Origin: Acidobacteriaceae bacterium
GTDB lineage: Bacteria; Acidobacteriota; Terriglobia; Terriglobales; Acidobacteriaceae
DNA: 64,000 nt
Assembly (NCBI GenBank): GCA_003138515.1
Contig: PLGG01000046.1
Coordinates: 60,220-124,219 of the forward strand
Direction of reading: 5' to 3'
Shown: piece after piece, positions 41,802 to 60,651 of the stretch
Numbering within the stretch: position 1 is the first letter of the stretch
How the letters are laid out: each line of letters begins with the position of its first letter
Program-made: the position numbers and the translations under genes
The notes under the pieces: generated by a model
Told to the model about the DNA's origin: nothing
Databases searched by the model: none
Seen by the model: only the letters and a program-made list of their open reading frames with translations

Positions 41802-42020
41802 CGACTCTCCTTCAGTGCCGGTTCTTCCACCTGATCTCAAAGAGAACTCGATTCTGCCGAGAATCTCCCAAAGCAGTCGCCCCGCACGAAGTGTATCTTC
41901 TTTGCGGCAAACCAAAGGCCACAAGAGGTAAGTTTCTGTGGAAATGCAAGTGCAAGAGGCCGGATACGCTGTTCCCTGAATCACGAACCGCAATCCTTCC
42001 AATTCAATTTCGCGTATGCC

Positions 42021-44738: not shown

Positions 44739-44831
44739 ATGATCGTCAAAACGCAAAACTCGATGCGTAGGCTGGGATGGCTCGAACTGAGCTCAACCGG
44801 CCGCCGGGCGCGGTTTTTCTATCTGCCGTAG
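44739..44831 (+). CDS. Possible 30-residue leader peptide
   Basis: ATG 44739 is preceded by GTAGGAG (8-base spacing) and opens a 30-codon frame: MIVKTQNSMRRLGWLELSST then GRRARFFYLP and TAG. It is basic with an aromatic end and has no recognisable family. Its 3' half overlaps a terminator-like hairpin. The good ribosome binding site suggests translation; it could equally be chance. Confidence 0.35.
   Translation: MIVKTQNSMRRLGWLELSSTGRRARFFYLP
44796..44820 (+). terminator. Terminator/attenuator-like hairpin overlapping the leader ORF
   Basis: AACCG...CGGTT arms with GC-rich interior (AACCGGCCGCCGGGCGCGGTT) are followed directly by TTTCT. It lies within the 30-codon frame and before the first array unit, so read-through would be needed for array transcription from an upstream promoter. 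Confidence 0.4.
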
Positions 44832-44877
44832 TCCCTTGCGGCCAACCTCCTGCGTATCCCGCATAACCGTTGATTCA

Positions 44878-44948
44878 TCCCGAGTGGCGTAGAAGCCAGC
44901 TTCATCGCCTTGACAACGCTACGCTGTCTTCGTCTGTTCCCTCGGGGA
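44878..44948 (+). ncRNA. Y-RNA-like unit 1 (no tRNA-like module)
   Basis: Outer stem CCCGAG (44879-44884) with CTCGGG (44941-44946), inner stem GGCGTAG (44886-44892) with CTACGCT (44919-44925). It keeps the 5' TGGCGTAG and 3' TGTTCC blocks at the same places as later units but has only a short apical part, without T- or D-arm. Confidence 0.55.
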
Positions 44949-45054
44949 ATGTCGCGCTGAGTTAGTCTCTTCCTTTTCTTGTTTTGGCGCCGCGATAAGT
45001 TATACGGCGTCATGAGAGGACTTATGTCTCTAAGTACTACTTTGTAAGTCAATT

Positions 45055-45185
45055 CCACCGGTGGTGATGAAACGAGTTACTTCCTGCCACGAAAAGCAGG
45101 GTGAAGGAAACCCTGCAGGAGCGGGCCGTTCCTGGTTCACGCCAGAGGCGGAGCTTCTCAACTCTTTTCGCTTGTTCCCCGGTGA
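45055..45185 (+). ncRNA. Y-RNA-like unit 2 (divergent apical domain)
   Basis: Outer stem CACCGG (45056-45061) with CCGGTG (45179-45184); inner stem GAGTT (45074-45078) with AACTC (45160-45164); the 3' block CTTGTTCCCC is intact. The apical region has other hairpins (GCAGGGT/ACCCTGC; CTGG/CCAG) instead of a canonical T-arm. Confidence 0.6.
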
Positions 45186-45225
45186 CAACCTCAACTGACG
45201 ATCAATTCGTCTAAAACCAAAAAAA

Positions 45226-45352
45226 GACCGGTGGCGTAGGGCGCGGTTACTTCGCCTGTTAAGCGGGATACGCGGGTTCGATTCCCGCCCGGAGCGCGAG
45301 TTCCGGTAGTTCAGTGGCAGAACGCCGTTACCGTCCCGCTTGTTCCCCGGTC
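45226..45352 (+). ncRNA. Y-RNA-like unit 3 with permuted tRNA-like module
   Basis: Outer stem GACCGG (45226-45231) with CCGGTC (45347-45352); inner CGGT (45244-45247) with ACCG (45330-45333). Between them, in order: T-arm GCGGG-TTCGATT-CCCGC (45272-45288), closed acceptor-like hairpin CCGGA/TCCGG (45289-45306), and D-arm GTTC-AGTGGCA-GAAC (45309-45323) with the GG of a tRNA D-loop. No CCA end or anticodon stem-loop is present; the Y stem takes the anticodon-arm position. Confidence 0.8.
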
Positions 45353-45396
45353 GCAACTTCAATTGGCGATCGACTCGTCCAAAACCAAAAGAAACC

Positions 45397-45528
45397 GGCC
45401 GGTGGTGTAGGCAACGGATACTTCGAGAGCGGAGAATGCGGGTTCGAATCCCGCCGCGATTGGCGCAACCAGTCGCGTGGTCTAACGGCAGGACATCCGA
45501 TAATTCTGCTGCCGCTTGTTCCCCGGTC
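45397..45528 (+). ncRNA. Y-RNA-like unit 4 with permuted tRNA-like module
   Basis: Outer GGCCGG (45397-45402) with CCGGTC (45523-45528); inner CGGAT (45415-45419) with ATCCG (45495-45499), a compensatory change relative to unit 3. T-arm GCGGG-TTCGAAT-CCCGC (45438-45454). Acceptor-like stem of nine pairs, CGCGATTGG with CCAGTCGCG, closed by CGCAA. The D-arm is GTC-TAACGGCAG-GAC. Confidence 0.8.
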
Positions 45529-45572
45529 ACAACGTCAACTGACGAGGCACTCGTCCAAAACCAGGAAAGAAC

Positions 45573-45710
45573 GGCCGGTGGTGGTCGCAACGGATACTTC
45601 GACGCTTCCCCAAGGGGAGGCAGCGGGTTCGAATCCCGCCCGGAGCCGAAAGGCTTCAGAGCTCAAACGGTGAGCACCGAGAGCAACACCGTTGCATTTG
45701 TTCCCCGGCC
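45573..45710 (+). ncRNA. Y-RNA-like unit 5 with permuted tRNA-like module
   Basis: Outer GGCCGG (45573-45578) with CCGGCC (45705-45710); inner CAACGG (45588-45593) with CCGTTG (45689-45694). T-arm GCGGG-TTCGAAT-CCCGC (45623-45639); acceptor-like GGAGCC with GGCTTC closed by a GAAA tetraloop; D-arm GCTC/GAGC (45661-45675). An extra CCCC-AA-GGGG hairpin before the T-arm resembles a long variable arm. Confidence 0.8.
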
Positions 45711-45754
45711 AGAGTTTTTTGCGGACAATATTCTCGTCCAAAACAAGGAAAAAC

Positions 45755-45889
45755 GGCCGGTGGCGTAGGTTGCGGTTACTTCGCCTGATACGTCGGAGGC
45801 GCGGGTTCGATTCTCGCGGCGAGCTGCGAGGCTCGAAAGCTCTGTGGTCAGAGCGCCGCAAAAAGTCCGCCATCGCTTGTTCCCCGGCC
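45755..45889 (+). ncRNA. Y-RNA-like unit 6 with permuted tRNA-like module
   Basis: Outer GGCCGG (45755-45760) with CCGGCC (45884-45889); inner TGCGG (45771-45775) with CCGCA (45856-45860). T-arm GCGGG-TTCGATT-CTCGC (45801-45817, one G-U); acceptor-like CGAGC/GCTCG; D-arm GCTC-TGTGGTCA-GAGC. Confidence 0.8.
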
Positions 45890-45940
45890 AGTAAGTTTGC
45901 ACTGCGCGCATTTTGAAGCGCGTGACTCAAAAACCACTTT

Positions 45941-46054
45941 GACCGGTGGTGTTGGCAACGGTTCCATCAATGGGTTGCGGGTTCGAGTCCCGCCGTTGGC
46001 GCATGCCGCGTAGCTCAATGGCAGAGCAATACCGTCGCCGCTTGTTCCCCGGTC
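45941..46054 (+). ncRNA. Y-RNA-like unit 7 with permuted tRNA-like module
   Basis: Outer GACCGG (45941-45946) with CCGGTC (46049-46054); inner ACGGT (45958-45962) with ACCGT (46031-46035). T-arm GCGGG-TTCGAGT-CCCGC (45977-45993). The acceptor-like hairpin is short (GGC/GCC); the D-arm TAGCTCAATGGCAGAGCA is indistinguishable from that of a normal tRNA. Confidence 0.8.
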
Positions 46055-46093
46055 ATCAACTTCCGGATTACCCGGATTAGAAACGAATGTGTC

Positions 46094-46438
46094 ATGAGCA
46101 AAGTAAACGTCAAGAACGGCTCGCAGTTCAGCAACCGACATCTCTGCCGAAGCTGCAGAAATGGCCAGGTTACGACCGGCTATCGCGAATCCGATGTCTG
46201 GGTCATCTGCACCAACTCAAGTCCGGCAAGAATGGTTCCGTTTCCGGTCGAAGAATGCACCGATTTCTGGGACCGCAACCGGCCGAACTGGGATCAGATG
46301 GAAGATCTGGCGATCAGTTTCAGCGAAACCCGCACGAGGCCGATCCGCGGCTTCGCCGGGACCGGTTTCTCACAGTTCCCCGCAGCCGCCGATGGCGACG
46401 ACGAGGACAAACAAGACGAGGCAGCGATCACTCGCTGA
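46094..46438 (+). CDS. Small cysteine-containing protein embedded in the Y-RNA array
   Basis: 114 residues from ATG 46094. The N-terminal half has HLCRSCRNGQ, a later Cys in VWVICTNSSP and a fourth in VPFPVEECTDFWDR, a C-x2-C...C...C pattern that could bind zinc or act as a redox site. The C-terminal half is polar and acidic, ending AADGDDEDKQDEAAITR. I recall, without being able to check, similar short C-x2-C proteins with the VPFxVxEC element in Acidobacteriota. No strong ribosome binding site is visible. It lies between array units 7 and 8 on the same strand and so belongs to the Ro/Y-RNA locus; its function is unknown. Confidence 0.65.
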   Translation: MSKVNVKNGSQFSNRHLCRSCRNGQVTTGYRESDVWVICTNSSPARMVPFPVEECTDFWDRNRPNWDQMEDLAISFSETRTRPIRGFAGTGFSQFPAAADGDDEDKQDEAAITR

Positions 46439-46463
46439 CCTCAAACCAAAACCAGAATGAACC

Positions 46464-46599
46464 CGCCGGTGGCGCAGGGCACGGATACTTCGGGTAGAGC
46501 ACCGCGAAAGCGAAGGTCACAAGTTCGAATCTTGTCGCCATCCAACAATGGCTGGCGTAGCTCAGAGCAACACCTTCCGCGCACGAATATTCCCCGGCG
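46464..46599 (+). ncRNA. Y-RNA-like unit 8, adjacent to the Ro gene
   Basis: Outer CGCCGG (46464-46469) with CCGGCG (46594-46599), a compensatory change versus other units; inner CGGA (46482-46485) with TCCG (46576-46579). T-arm ACAAG-TTCGAAT-CTTGT is fully paired though its stem differs from every other unit. Acceptor-like GCCAT/ATGGC is closed by CCAACA. The D-arm is reduced (GCTCAGAGC without the GG loop). Confidence 0.75.
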
Positions 46600-46634
46600 A
46601 GTTATTCTTGGTTCACTTAGAAAGGAGGCGCACG

Positions 46635-48002
46635 ATGCGCCTGAACATCTTCAAGCCCAAGCCGCGTCCGCGCACTCACGAGGGAGCTCGGGCCAGCGTC
46701 ATCACTGCCGAGCAGGCCCTGCGCCGCTCTGTCCTCTCCTGCATGTTGTGGGAGGGCGAGTTTTACGAGGACGGCGTGCAGATCGCCGGCCGCATTCATG
46801 AGCTGATCCCGCAGGTCGACGGCGAAAAGGTGGCCGCGCTGGCCGTCGAAGCTCGCGAACGTATGAAGCTGCGTCACGCCCCGCTTCTGCTCGTTCGCGA
46901 GATGGCGCGTCATGCTACGCATCGCGGCCTGGTGGCCGACACGCTCGCGCGCGTCATTCAGCGCGCCGACGAGCTCAGCGAATTCGTCGCCATCTACTGG
47001 GCCGGCGGGCGTCAGCCGCTCTCCGCGCAGGTCAAGAAGGGCCTGGCCACCGCGTTCGGCAAGTTCGACGAGTACGCGCTGGCCAAGTACGACCGCGCCG
47101 GCGCTGTTCGCCTTCGCGACGTGCTCTTCCTCTGCCATGCGCGCCCCGCCGATGAGGCGCAGGCCGCATTGTGGAAGCGCCTGGTCGATAACCAGCTTGC
47201 CACGCCCGACACCTGGGAGGTTGCGCTTTCTGCAACCGGTCGCGGTGAGGATGCCGAAGGAAAGCGGGAAGTCGCCAAGCGCGAAGTGTGGGAGCGCCTG
47301 CTCGCCGATCGCAAGCTCGGCGCGTTGGCTCTCTTGCGCAACTTGCGCAACCTGCATCAGGCCGGCGTGACCGAAGAGCTGGTGCTGGCCGCGCTCGCTG
47401 AAATGAGGACGGACCGGGTTCTTCCCTTCCGTTTTCTAGCCGCCGCGCGTTCGGCTCCGCAGTGGGAGCAGCCTCTCGAGTTTGCCATGTTCCGTTCGCT
47501 CGAAGGCCGCGCATCCACTCTGCGCGGTCACACCGTGCTGCTGGTCGACGTCTCCGGCTCCATGGAGGCGCCGCTGTCGCGCCGTTCCGAGATGCGCCGG
47601 ACTGACGCTGCTTACGGCCTGGCGATCCTGCTGCGCGAAATCGCCGAGAAGGTCACCATCTACACGTTCTCCGATGAAGCAAAGCTGGTGCCGTCGCGCC
47701 GTGGCATGGCGCTACGCGACGCGCTCGACGCGAGCCAGCCGCACTCGGGAACGTACCTCGGCAAGGCGCTGAGCCATGTCGAGGCCGAAAACCGGGCCGG
47801 CTGCGACCGCCTCATCGTCATCACCGATGAGCAGTCGCACGACAGCGTCCCCGCGCCGCGCGGCAAGGGCTACGTGATCAACGTGGCTTCCAACCGCAAC
47901 GGCGTCGGCTACGGCCCGTGGACTCACGTCGACGGCTGGAGCGAAGCGGTGGTCGACTACATCGCCGAGCTCGAAGCCAGCGTCGGCACGCCGGGCGTGT
48001 AA
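46635..48002 (+). CDS. rsr: Ro60/Rsr-family RNA-binding protein (TROVE + vWA)
   Basis: Ring-shaped RNA-binding protein that holds Y RNAs and misfolded or decaying RNA, working with nucleases such as PNPase in bacteria where studied. 455 residues. The TROVE HEAT-like domain (about 1-290) opens with RTHEGARASVITAEQALRRS and contains LLLVREMARHATHRGLVADT. The C-terminal vWA domain has a complete MIDAS site: D305-x-S307-x-S309 in LLVDVSGSMEAPL, T373 in GTYLGKAL, and D398 in VITDEQSHD, the ITDEQ seen in Ro proteins. ATG 46635 follows AAAGGAGG with 6-base spacing. It lies directly after the Y-RNA-like array. No RtcA/RtcB ligase genes are nearby, unlike the enterobacterial locus. Confidence 0.93.
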   Translation: MRLNIFKPKPRPRTHEGARASVITAEQALRRSVLSCMLWEGEFYEDGVQIAGRIHELIPQVDGEKVAALAVEARERMKLRHAPLLLVREMARHATHRGLVADTLARVIQRADELSEFVAIYWAGGRQPLSAQVKKGLATAFGKFDEYALAKYDRAGAVRLRDVLFLCHARPADEAQAALWKRLVDNQLATPDTWEVALSATGRGEDAEGKREVAKREVWERLLADRKLGALALLRNLRNLHQAGVTEELVLAALAEMRTDRVLPFRFLAAARSAPQWEQPLEFAMFRSLEGRASTLRGHTVLLVDVSGSMEAPLSRRSEMRRTDAAYGLAILLREIAEKVTIYTFSDEAKLVPSRRGMALRDALDASQPHSGTYLGKALSHVEAENRAGCDRLIVITDEQSHDSVPAPRGKGYVINVASNRNGVGYGPWTHVDGWSEAVVDYIAELEASVGTPGV

Positions 48003-59784: not shown

Positions 59785-60651
59785 ATGCAGCCTTCAACGG
59801 CCGATCCGATCGAATCCGCACGGCGTCTCTATGCCGCGGAACTGTGCCGCGTCAATCACATCTCCTCGCCCGCCATTCTCCGCGCCTTCTCCACCGTGCC
59901 CCGCGAGCGTTTCGTTGGCCCCGGTCCGTGGATGATTCAGACCAGTGGCACCGAGTGGTTCACTGAGAGCGCCGATCCTCAAAACGTCTATCGCGATGCC
60001 CTCATCGTCCTCGATGCGGCCAAACGCCTGAACAACGGTCAGCCCAGCCTCTGGGCATTTCATCTCATCCTGCTCAACGTCCGCCCCGGCGATCGCATCC
60101 TTCATCTTGGTTGCGGCACGGGCTATTACTCCGCCATCCTCGCCGAGCTCACCGGCCCGCACGGAAAAGTCGTCGCCGTCGAAATCGACGAAGGCCTCGC
60201 CGCCCGTGCCCGCATTGCGCTCGAGCCCTGGCCTCAAGTCACAGTGGCCCACGCCGACGGCGCGCAAGGCCCATTCGATTCCGCGGACGTCATCGTCGTC
60301 AGCGCAGGAGCAACGCATCCCGTCGCCGCATGGCTCTCCGCCCTCAAGCCCGAAGGCAAGCTCCTCTTCCCGCTCACATCCACGCGCGGCCCGGGAACCA
60401 TGGCCTACCTCACCCGCAAGAGCGCCGACCTCTTCGCGGCCATGCTCTGCGGCTCCGTCTTCTTCGTTGATTTTGAAGGCGCGCGCGACTCCGCCGTCAG
60501 CGATGAACTCGCCCGCGCTCTCAAGCGCGATCACGGCGCCGGCGTTCGCTCACTTCGCTGCGACGCTCACGAAAAAGACGAATCCTGCTGGCTGCACGGC
60601 AGCGGCTGGTGCTTCTCGCGCCGCACGGCCGTCCCCGCACAACTTGCGTGA
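59785..60651 (+). CDS. Protein-L-isoaspartate O-methyltransferase-like protein
   Basis: 288 residues. The N-terminal helix set (ILRAFSTVPRERFVGPGPWM) and the motif GDRILHLGCGTGYYSAILAE with VVAVEIDEGLAARARIAL resemble Pcm enzymes that repair isoaspartyl residues. The central PVAAWLSALKPEGKLLFPL is also Pcm-like. The segment between (residues 45-95) and the long C-terminus differ from classical Pcm, so it may methylate another substrate. The start is ATG 59785, 60 bases downstream of TATAAT at 59720-59725. It ends 3 bases from the convergent uvrA. Confidence 0.75.
   Translation: MQPSTADPIESARRLYAAELCRVNHISSPAILRAFSTVPRERFVGPGPWMIQTSGTEWFTESADPQNVYRDALIVLDAAKRLNNGQPSLWAFHLILLNVRPGDRILHLGCGTGYYSAILAELTGPHGKVVAVEIDEGLAARARIALEPWPQVTVAHADGAQGPFDSADVIVVSAGATHPVAAWLSALKPEGKLLFPLTSTRGPGTMAYLTRKSADLFAAMLCGSVFFVDFEGARDSAVSDELARALKRDHGAGVRSLRCDAHEKDESCWLHGSGWCFSRRTAVPAQLA

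Follow-up and report, generated by a model that had tools for sequence, protein, structure and literature searches.

A tandem array of eight predicted Y-type RNA units, six of them with tRNA-like parts, upstream of a Ro60-family gene in an Acidobacteriaceae bacterium

Results

Eight related units precede rsr

We analyzed a stretch of 64,000 nucleotides (nt) from an Acidobacteriaceae bacterium (assembly GCA_003138515.1, contig PLGG01000046.1, forward-strand positions 60,220 to 124,219; hereafter the window, whose numbering is used throughout), in which rsr, a gene of the Ro60 family, is directly preceded on the same strand by eight tandem units (U1 to U8, positions 44879–46599). The original prediction had proposed eight related units ahead of rsr, and all are found at that place: a scanner that uses only the unit core returns exactly eight between positions 42000 and 50000, with scores of 39 to 44.5 and a next best score of 27. 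The units share one plan, which comprises six outer base pairs, a bulged T, a GG/CC pairing, an internal loop, an inner helix, a TACTTC motif, a variable head, and the return strands. The TACTTC motif is exact in U2 to U6 and in U8 and is present as a variant in U1 and U7. A T-arm of the transfer RNA (tRNA) type is found in six of the eight units, U1 and U2 being devoid of one, and the D-arm strands of U8 flank its T-arm. U8 ends 35 bases before the start of rsr. The features of the locus are as follows:

44879–44946, + strand: U1, 68 nt, short bare Y-type unit with core stem and apical loop, without T-arm (core scan)
45056–45184, + strand: U2, shortened, diverged member of a long non-tRNA class (37.4 bits with covariance model R1, see below)
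45226–45352, + strand: U3, tRNA-like, with anticodon-arm-like hairpin 45251–45267 (loop CTGTTAA), T-arm 45272–45288, acceptor hairpin 45289–45306, and D-arm 45309–45323
45397–45528, + strand: U4, tRNA-like, with T-arm, acceptor hairpin of nine base pairs, D-arm, and a 4-nt loop at the anticodon-arm place
45573–45710, + strand: U5, tRNA-like, its anticodon-arm place taken by a long hairpin
45755–45889, + strand: U6, tRNA-like, without an Rfam YrlA match
45941–46054, + strand: U7, compact tRNA-like unit with the best Rfam YrlA match of the array
46094–46438, + strand: gene for a small protein of 114 residues with four cysteines (Cys4), within the array
46464–46599, + strand: U8, rsr-proximal, with GAGC 46497–46500, anticodon-arm-like hairpin 46501–46517, T-arm 46519–46535, acceptor arms 46536–46540/46553–46557, TA, and GCTC 46560–46563
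46635–48002, + strand: rsr, Ro60-family gene with TROVE and vWA domains (Pfam)

A covarying stem and a recurrent arm order define the units

The units possess a long basal stem with a conserved core, and the covariation of this stem exceeds chance. To score covariation, units were located by fixed anchors (TGGYG with a TACTTC-like motif, then G..YRTTCC) with no pairing criterion, and the pairing of the flanking letters was evaluated. This anchor-only sample comprises 125 units, seven of them from the window, with 67 distinct outer stems and 119 distinct inner strands. Covariation in the outer stem reaches z scores of 5.1–8.6 at all six positions and in the inner helix 7.4–8.8 at the best positions, with inner positions 0, 7, and 9 weak (z 1.7, 2.8, and 0.3). 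The covariation of both helices that had been noticed among the units of the window is thus beyond chance across homologous loci.

We also carried out the covariance-model search beside TROVE genes that the original prediction had called for, using a model (R1) built from six units, U3 to U8. R1 yields 274 matches (E ≤ 1) in 81 rsr sources, every one on the rsr strand; six of these are the sequences from which the model was built, and a small number, in Emticicia, coincide in part with ordinary tRNA genes. When applied to the organism's own genome at the same threshold, R1 returns eight matches, seven of which are the array (U1 is unmatched) and the eighth of which is weak and lies elsewhere (E 0.93). 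In 150 R1-aligned matches, 90.9% of cells are paired versus 69.7% after shuffling, in a fitted alignment that leans to structure, and two-sided changes are found in 25 of 27 pairs (816 such cells versus 234 in the shuffled set). For helix 2, the inner one, pairing reaches only 54.6%, and its register varies.

The order T-arm, closed acceptor hairpin, and D-arm with GG in its loop, which had been claimed for units 3 to 7, is recovered in all five by a loose descriptor run on the whole window (scores 18.4–32.6), where chance matches comprise three more on the + strand and seven on the − strand, some of them reaching 25. A strict descriptor was applied to 942,874 bases, consisting of 80 rsr loci (retained out of 104 when genome contigs were scanned with an Rsr alignment; individual loci carry L numbers below) and 12 kb of the window; it gives 112 matches on the rsr strand versus none on the opposite strand, and U3 to U7 account for five of the 112.

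The array resembles YrlA without joining its Rfam family

At Rfam gathering scores, no match is found in the window. Under permissive settings the best family is YrlA (RF02553), for which U7 gives 39.4 bits (E 1.2e-6) against a gathering score of 69; U3 and U7 have E values below 1e-5, U4, U5, and U8 match weakly, and U6 does not match, the scores spanning 23–39 bits. Since the best score of 39.4 bits is below 69, we do not file the units as RF02553 members. The remaining permissive matches, to MIR169_2 (other strand, 28.4 bits, cut-off 50), tRNA, pieces of tmRNA, mascRNA, and plastid families, were rejected as chance or as recognition of the T-arm alone.

The units share with YrlA the sequence of T-arm, closed acceptor, and D-arm within a long stem beside rsr. 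They differ in that the YrlA consensus leaves little space between stem and T-arm into which an anticodon arm would fit, the place at which U3 carries a 17-nt insertion, and in that the window holds an array of eight with U8 opened in the D loop. The sequences support a YrlA-like, rsr-linked, covarying, and individually diversified set of units. With the Deinococcus radiodurans Y RNA (RF01053), the unit core shares the CGGUUaCuuC stretch, and that RNA has a T-arm without a D-arm, as does a class of 88–124 nt in relatives; however, one unit of L034 reaches only 20.8 bits (E 0.3) with this family, whose cut-off is 80.

The Salmonella rsr-yrlBA-rtcBA operon (PMC7790460) likewise places rsr and tRNA-like Y RNA in one locus, but its name lists two Y RNA genes rather than eight units and includes RtcB, which we did not find in the organism's genome. 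The algal and archaeal circularly permuted tRNA genes (PMC3978253) include a D-loop junction (type I, position 20/21) that resembles U8; those genes are processed to tRNAs, whereas in the window the acceptors are closed and lie within a Y stem, and the opening of U8 is closer to position 14–18.

The heads fall into several classes

Hairpins of varying shape occupy the place of the tRNA anticodon arm in U4 to U7. The head of U3 reads TTCGC-CTGTTAA-GCGGG, followed by ATAC and then the T-arm; with this anticodon-arm-like hairpin retained, the U3 tRNA would be opened between the D and anticodon arms. The proposal that units 3 to 7 are all tRNAs opened at the anticodon is therefore not supported for U3. 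Because RNAfold prefers another hairpin for the isolated U3 stretch and the L002 counterpart is without the canonical form, the anticodon arm of U3 is argued from comparison. Among 144 distinct head regions, the best hairpin has a 7-nt loop in 39 (expectation 9.9; maximum of 21 over 300 shuffles), and 24 of the 39 combine a pyrimidine at position 32, U33, and a purine at position 37 (0.7 expected; at most 4 in shuffles), one per locus in 24 loci. Rotation of the region by three or four letters keeps 21 and 11 of the 24 canonical loops, and rotation by at least five keeps 0–3. The shuffles in this test and in the short-unit and viral loop tests below keep base composition only, and as rows share ancestry, also within the viral set, P values given here overstate independence.

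The tRNA-like set is also wider than units 3 to 7, to which it had been limited: U8 has a T-arm as well, and U1 and U2 are not tRNA-like. In U8, GG-T-A-GAGC precedes the T-arm and GCTC comes after the acceptor, from which U8 and other rsr-proximal units are predicted to be tRNAs opened in the D loop. When 146 T-arm units were scanned with a strict D-arm pattern (its 3′ part), the pattern lay only before the T-arm in 12, only after it in 44, nowhere in 90, and twice in none; in the opposite-strand control two units match. The pattern lies before the T-arm in 10 of 42 rsr-proximal units versus 2 of 104 other T-arm units (Fisher P 7e-5, subject to the shared ancestry just described). A D-loop-open descriptor gives 91 matches versus five on the opposite strand, many of the best 45 of which are chance pairings in the tRNA-like class; full fits include units of L002, L007, L008, L013, L016, and L038. 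Unit 6 of L002, the counterpart of U8, fits fully, and U8 itself has a mismatch in a short hairpin and is not among the best 45 of the 91.

Short bare units, to which U1 belongs, were collected as 43 of 44 short calls (one in L052, without a TACTTC-like motif, was dropped) plus five from L073–L081. Exactly seven apical loop letters are found in 28 of these 48 units (3.4 expected), and the 28 loops have C32 in 22, U33 in 24, and A37 in 23, with letters 34–36 variable, a pattern of sequence that marks them as putative anticodon-loop mimics in relatives. Viral short units have a 7-nt apical loop in 8 of 21 (2.2 expected). The best apical loop of U1 is 6 nt, and U1 does not display the anticodon-loop pattern.

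The long class, of 150–186 nt, is represented in the window by U2, which is without the conserved GGCGTAGTCC part. Across 24 sequences (U2 and 23 long units), 39 pairs are predicted and 28 of them show changes on both sides, a count made without a shuffle control. One long-class stretch searched in Rfam has no match on its strand at E ≤ 5. Long Y-type units with a conserved GGGGGCGTAGTCCCGAAGCACAAGGT-like head are found at L002 4739–4902, L034 3257–3417, and in 21 further loci. Heads of 88–124 nt that carry a T-arm and one hairpin without a D-arm are seen only in relatives, none of that class occurring in the window. Caulobacterales loci exhibit another non-tRNA head class, with GGCGGAAG near the end (L053 5450–5600, L055 5396–5544, and other loci).

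Arrays are common beside rsr and extend to viruses

Unit calls join core-scan matches (score ≥36, for which 14 matches lie on the opposite strand of all sequence) with R1 matches of at least 30 bits; a small number of calls far upstream, in L019, L022, L044, and L052, are probably spurious. Units were counted within 4.6 kb in 57 loci; these are the ones, out of 71 non-Bacteroidota sources counting the window, in which the sequence before rsr spans 3 kb or more. One unit is found in six loci, two in 4, three in 11, four in 19, five in 10, six in 4, seven in 2, and eight in the window. At least three units are thus present in 47 of the 57 loci, and four is the commonest number. T-arm units range from 0 to 6 per locus, with the maximum in the window. 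With arrays this common, that of the window is not a freak but the largest seen of a conserved type. It is unusual, as had been suggested, relative to described bacterial loci, which have one or two Y RNAs each in the sources consulted (three are suggested for one phage); within the rsr clade a multi-unit array is the ordinary case. The order and size classes of the units recur among loci.

In 396 genomes of the phylum, R1 matches (E ≤ 0.05, stricter filters) occur in 24, with the organism's own genome having the most, six, and the next four. The rsr gene itself is patchy: of 150 genomes in the family, 38 give a match. In some of the family's genomes the rsr match is interrupted by a stop or covers just part of the gene (L083, L104, L110, and shorter matches), a few of these cases being at contig ends; such stops and pieces may reflect repeated loss of the system. 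Nine Bacteroidota loci have unit calls, and in six of them the units lie only downstream of rsr. In Emticicia L073, L074, and L077, rsr and Y-type units sit inside a run of 11 to 15 tRNA genes (ARAGORN).

TROVE proteins are known from jumbo phages and Borg elements (PMC7824862 and PMC11208441), and three abundant RNAs near a phage rsr have been suggested as possible Y RNAs (PMC12282133). We find an Rsr-like match in 85 phage records, over at least 80% of its length in 63. In the viral rsr loci L122–L147, R1 gives 63 matches (E ≤ 0.5) in 26 loci, all on the rsr strand, and Y-type units are called in 24 of the 26, up to five per locus.

Individual units belong to separate lineages

The unit set comprises 242 of the 274 R1 rows (those below 25.9 bits and three partial or truncated ones from L041, L074, and L077 were excluded) plus U1, which was included manually, and the viral set consists of 61 of 63 R1 rows (partial rows in L125 and L141 left out). 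Identity among U3 to U8 is 60–75%, except for 55% between U7 and U8. Identity to L002 counterparts is 96% for U1 (with the first L002 unit) and 86% for U3, U5, and U8. A tree was built of 54 T-arm units drawn from 18 loci. In it, U4 falls together with units of L005, L062, L006, and L014 (support 97/98), U5 with L002 unit 5 (100/100), U6 with L062 unit 5 (97/91), U8 with L002 (100/93), and, less firmly, U3 with L002 and L010 (91/87); two units of the window never form a pair. Of the 18 rsr-proximal units, 17, U8 included, share a split of 18 rows with one neighbor (support 100/74; the 17-row part 98/82), the last unit of L020 falling outside it. In nine counterpart comparisons, 21 pairs changed on one side and 12 on both sides with pairing kept (33 kept), 14 broke, and 10 met gaps; these comparisons used scanner-made helices, so the D-loop-open fold of U8 is not what was compared. 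As judged from these sequences, the units are long-lived separate lineages that persist across genera.

The rsr product and neighboring genes

The rsr product matches Pfam TROVE (53.2 bits, cut-off 23) and VWA_2 (31.6, cut-off 27), with vWA_Ro60 just below its cut-off (26.6 versus 27.7), and its gene is the only TROVE gene found in the organism's genome (4.23 Mb, 97% complete). The AlphaFold model has a mean predicted local distance difference test (pLDDT) score of 69.9, and among its first 58 residues the majority score below 50. In Foldseek the top matches are Ro60 proteins, D. radiodurans Rsr (2nvo) among them, at template-modeling (TM) scores of about 0.34–0.44 and root-mean-square deviations of 14–15, low and high enough, respectively, that the search supports the Rsr family and not structural detail.

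Homologues of the small Cys4 gene are found upstream of rsr in 32 of the 80 loci, 31 of which are titled Acidobacteriota or its subgroups and one (L007) Opitutia. The protein has four Cys that are invariant in 21 sequences and an acidic tail; it belongs to no Pfam or NCBIfam family, a PDB sequence search gave nothing useful, and its AlphaFold model (mean pLDDT 44) was not used. This protein may be a protein partner of the array. RtcB was sought in the organism's genome with no match, which argues that it is not needed for the system; it is present in 15 of 22 genomes of chosen relatives. On the same strand as rsr, rtcB starts about 370 bases past rsr in L053 and L055 and lies about 580 bases before it in L050. 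Directly before the array, positions 44739–44834 hold what may be a short reading frame, along with a GC-rich hairpin plus T run (44799–44815).

Discussion

Proposed exchangeable adaptors for a single Rsr

A constant stem, a variable head, one protein gene, and many RNAs make exchangeable adaptors the simplest reading of this locus. We propose, with a probability of roughly 70%, that a single Rsr uses the predicted Y RNAs as exchangeable adaptors that have a common stem and differing, mostly tRNA-mimicking heads, each gating Rsr or tethering it to a different partner. The units would be transcribed, and the shared stem would bind Rsr, by analogy with the lower stems of DrY and Yrl RNAs, which do so (PMC4726728). 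Rsr would be loaded with one of several array RNAs through the common stem, and the head of the loaded RNA would then set what the Rsr particle meets, by gating or by tethering. The adaptor principle would be supplied by RYPER, the machine of Rsr, Y RNA, and PNPase, in which the stem binds Rsr and the head reaches the nuclease (same source); RYPER differs in having one RNA, whereas many heads are found here, and a contact with PNPase is hypothetical for them.

Several observations weigh against this proposal. Single-sequence folding is modest, with z beyond −3 only in U5 (−5.79) and values of −0.70, −1.13, and −1.38 for U8, U1, and U7; a sigma-70-type promoter sought between 44500 and 46700 was not found; the YrlA gathering score is not reached in the window or in 11 further loci; and in those 11 loci one unit of L005 is called a tRNA by Rfam (29.9 bits versus 29). 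The 54-unit tree leaves 25 of 51 inner branches open and U7 without a place, and its bootstrap had not settled. The choice of partners by the heads, whether PNPase or tRNA-handling enzymes, would be a guess by analogy with RYPER. Between the units, no promoters were found, and terminators number six versus 3.1 expected, a count that tells little. Spacer hairpins were considered as processing sites and set aside, being too weak and variable (68 spacers, mean z −1.17 versus mononucleotide shuffles).

The chief rival, which we consider unlikely, holds that Rsr-bound tRNA parts and permuted tRNAs are decoys that titrate away enzymes which cut or handle tRNAs when the cell is under phage attack or stress. 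The anticodon-loop pattern of the short units in relatives, with its U33 and A37, would suit such a role, as would the 7-nt loops of viral short units and the Y-type units and Rsr-like matches of viruses and phages. A competitive-inhibitor role of YrlA has also been suggested (PMC7790460), and phage tRNAs have been argued to act against anticodon nucleases (PMC10264068). However, U1 of the window is without a 7-nt loop, the heads of U2 and the long class are not tRNA-like, no nuclease gene is tied to the locus (though no search was aimed at one), and no YrlA fragments produced by the nuclease under study are reported in PMC7790460.

The other explanations carry far less weight. A neutral origin, in which a single Y RNA was duplicated in tandem and the copies have no roles of their own, would fit the tandem layout, the identity of U3 to U8, and a unit number that ranges from 1 to 8 among the 57 loci, but it is very improbable: U1, U3, U4, U5, U6, and U8 resemble their counterparts elsewhere more than they resemble one another, changed pairs are kept more often than broken (33 versus 14), and unit order and size classes recur. 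There is an equally slim chance that the units, or at least U8 in the rsr leader, mainly regulate rsr in cis by binding Rsr. The 35-base distance of U8 from rsr and the unit that lies shortly before rsr in many loci speak for such regulation, under which seven further units with different heads would be superfluous and the six Bacteroidota loci with units only downstream of rsr would not be expected. The least probable reading takes the units for circularly permuted tRNA genes from which functional tRNAs would arise. The arm order is indeed permuted and U8 resembles the algal type I D-loop junction (PMC3978253), but the acceptor arms of U3 to U7 are closed by loops of 4–7 letters such as GCGA and GAAA, all units lie within a conserved outer stem, and ARAGORN finds no tRNAs in the window, which argues against tRNA genes.

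Implications

Beyond the adaptor proposal, we entertain as a tentative extension, itself doubtful, that the array is a kit of tRNA parts, in which tRNAs opened at two places, T-arm heads, and, in relatives, anticodon-arm heads are carried on a common stem in long-kept lineages, also in phages, so that one Rsr would engage or block many tRNA-handling or tRNA-cutting enzymes. Neither such arrays nor a D-loop-open Y RNA is described in the titles and abstract openings surveyed, which mostly do not cover the subscription literature, and we therefore do not claim that they are unpublished. These RNAs escape detection at Rfam gathering scores. With the D-loop-open permutation and the heads that resemble anticodon loops, tRNA mimicry would gain further forms, and a kit of this kind, if real, would amount to a programmable tRNA-mimic ribonucleoprotein. 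If the arrays are expressed, one Ro60 protein would have a whole set of interchangeable heads at its disposal, the function of each of which could be tested by swapping or deleting single units.

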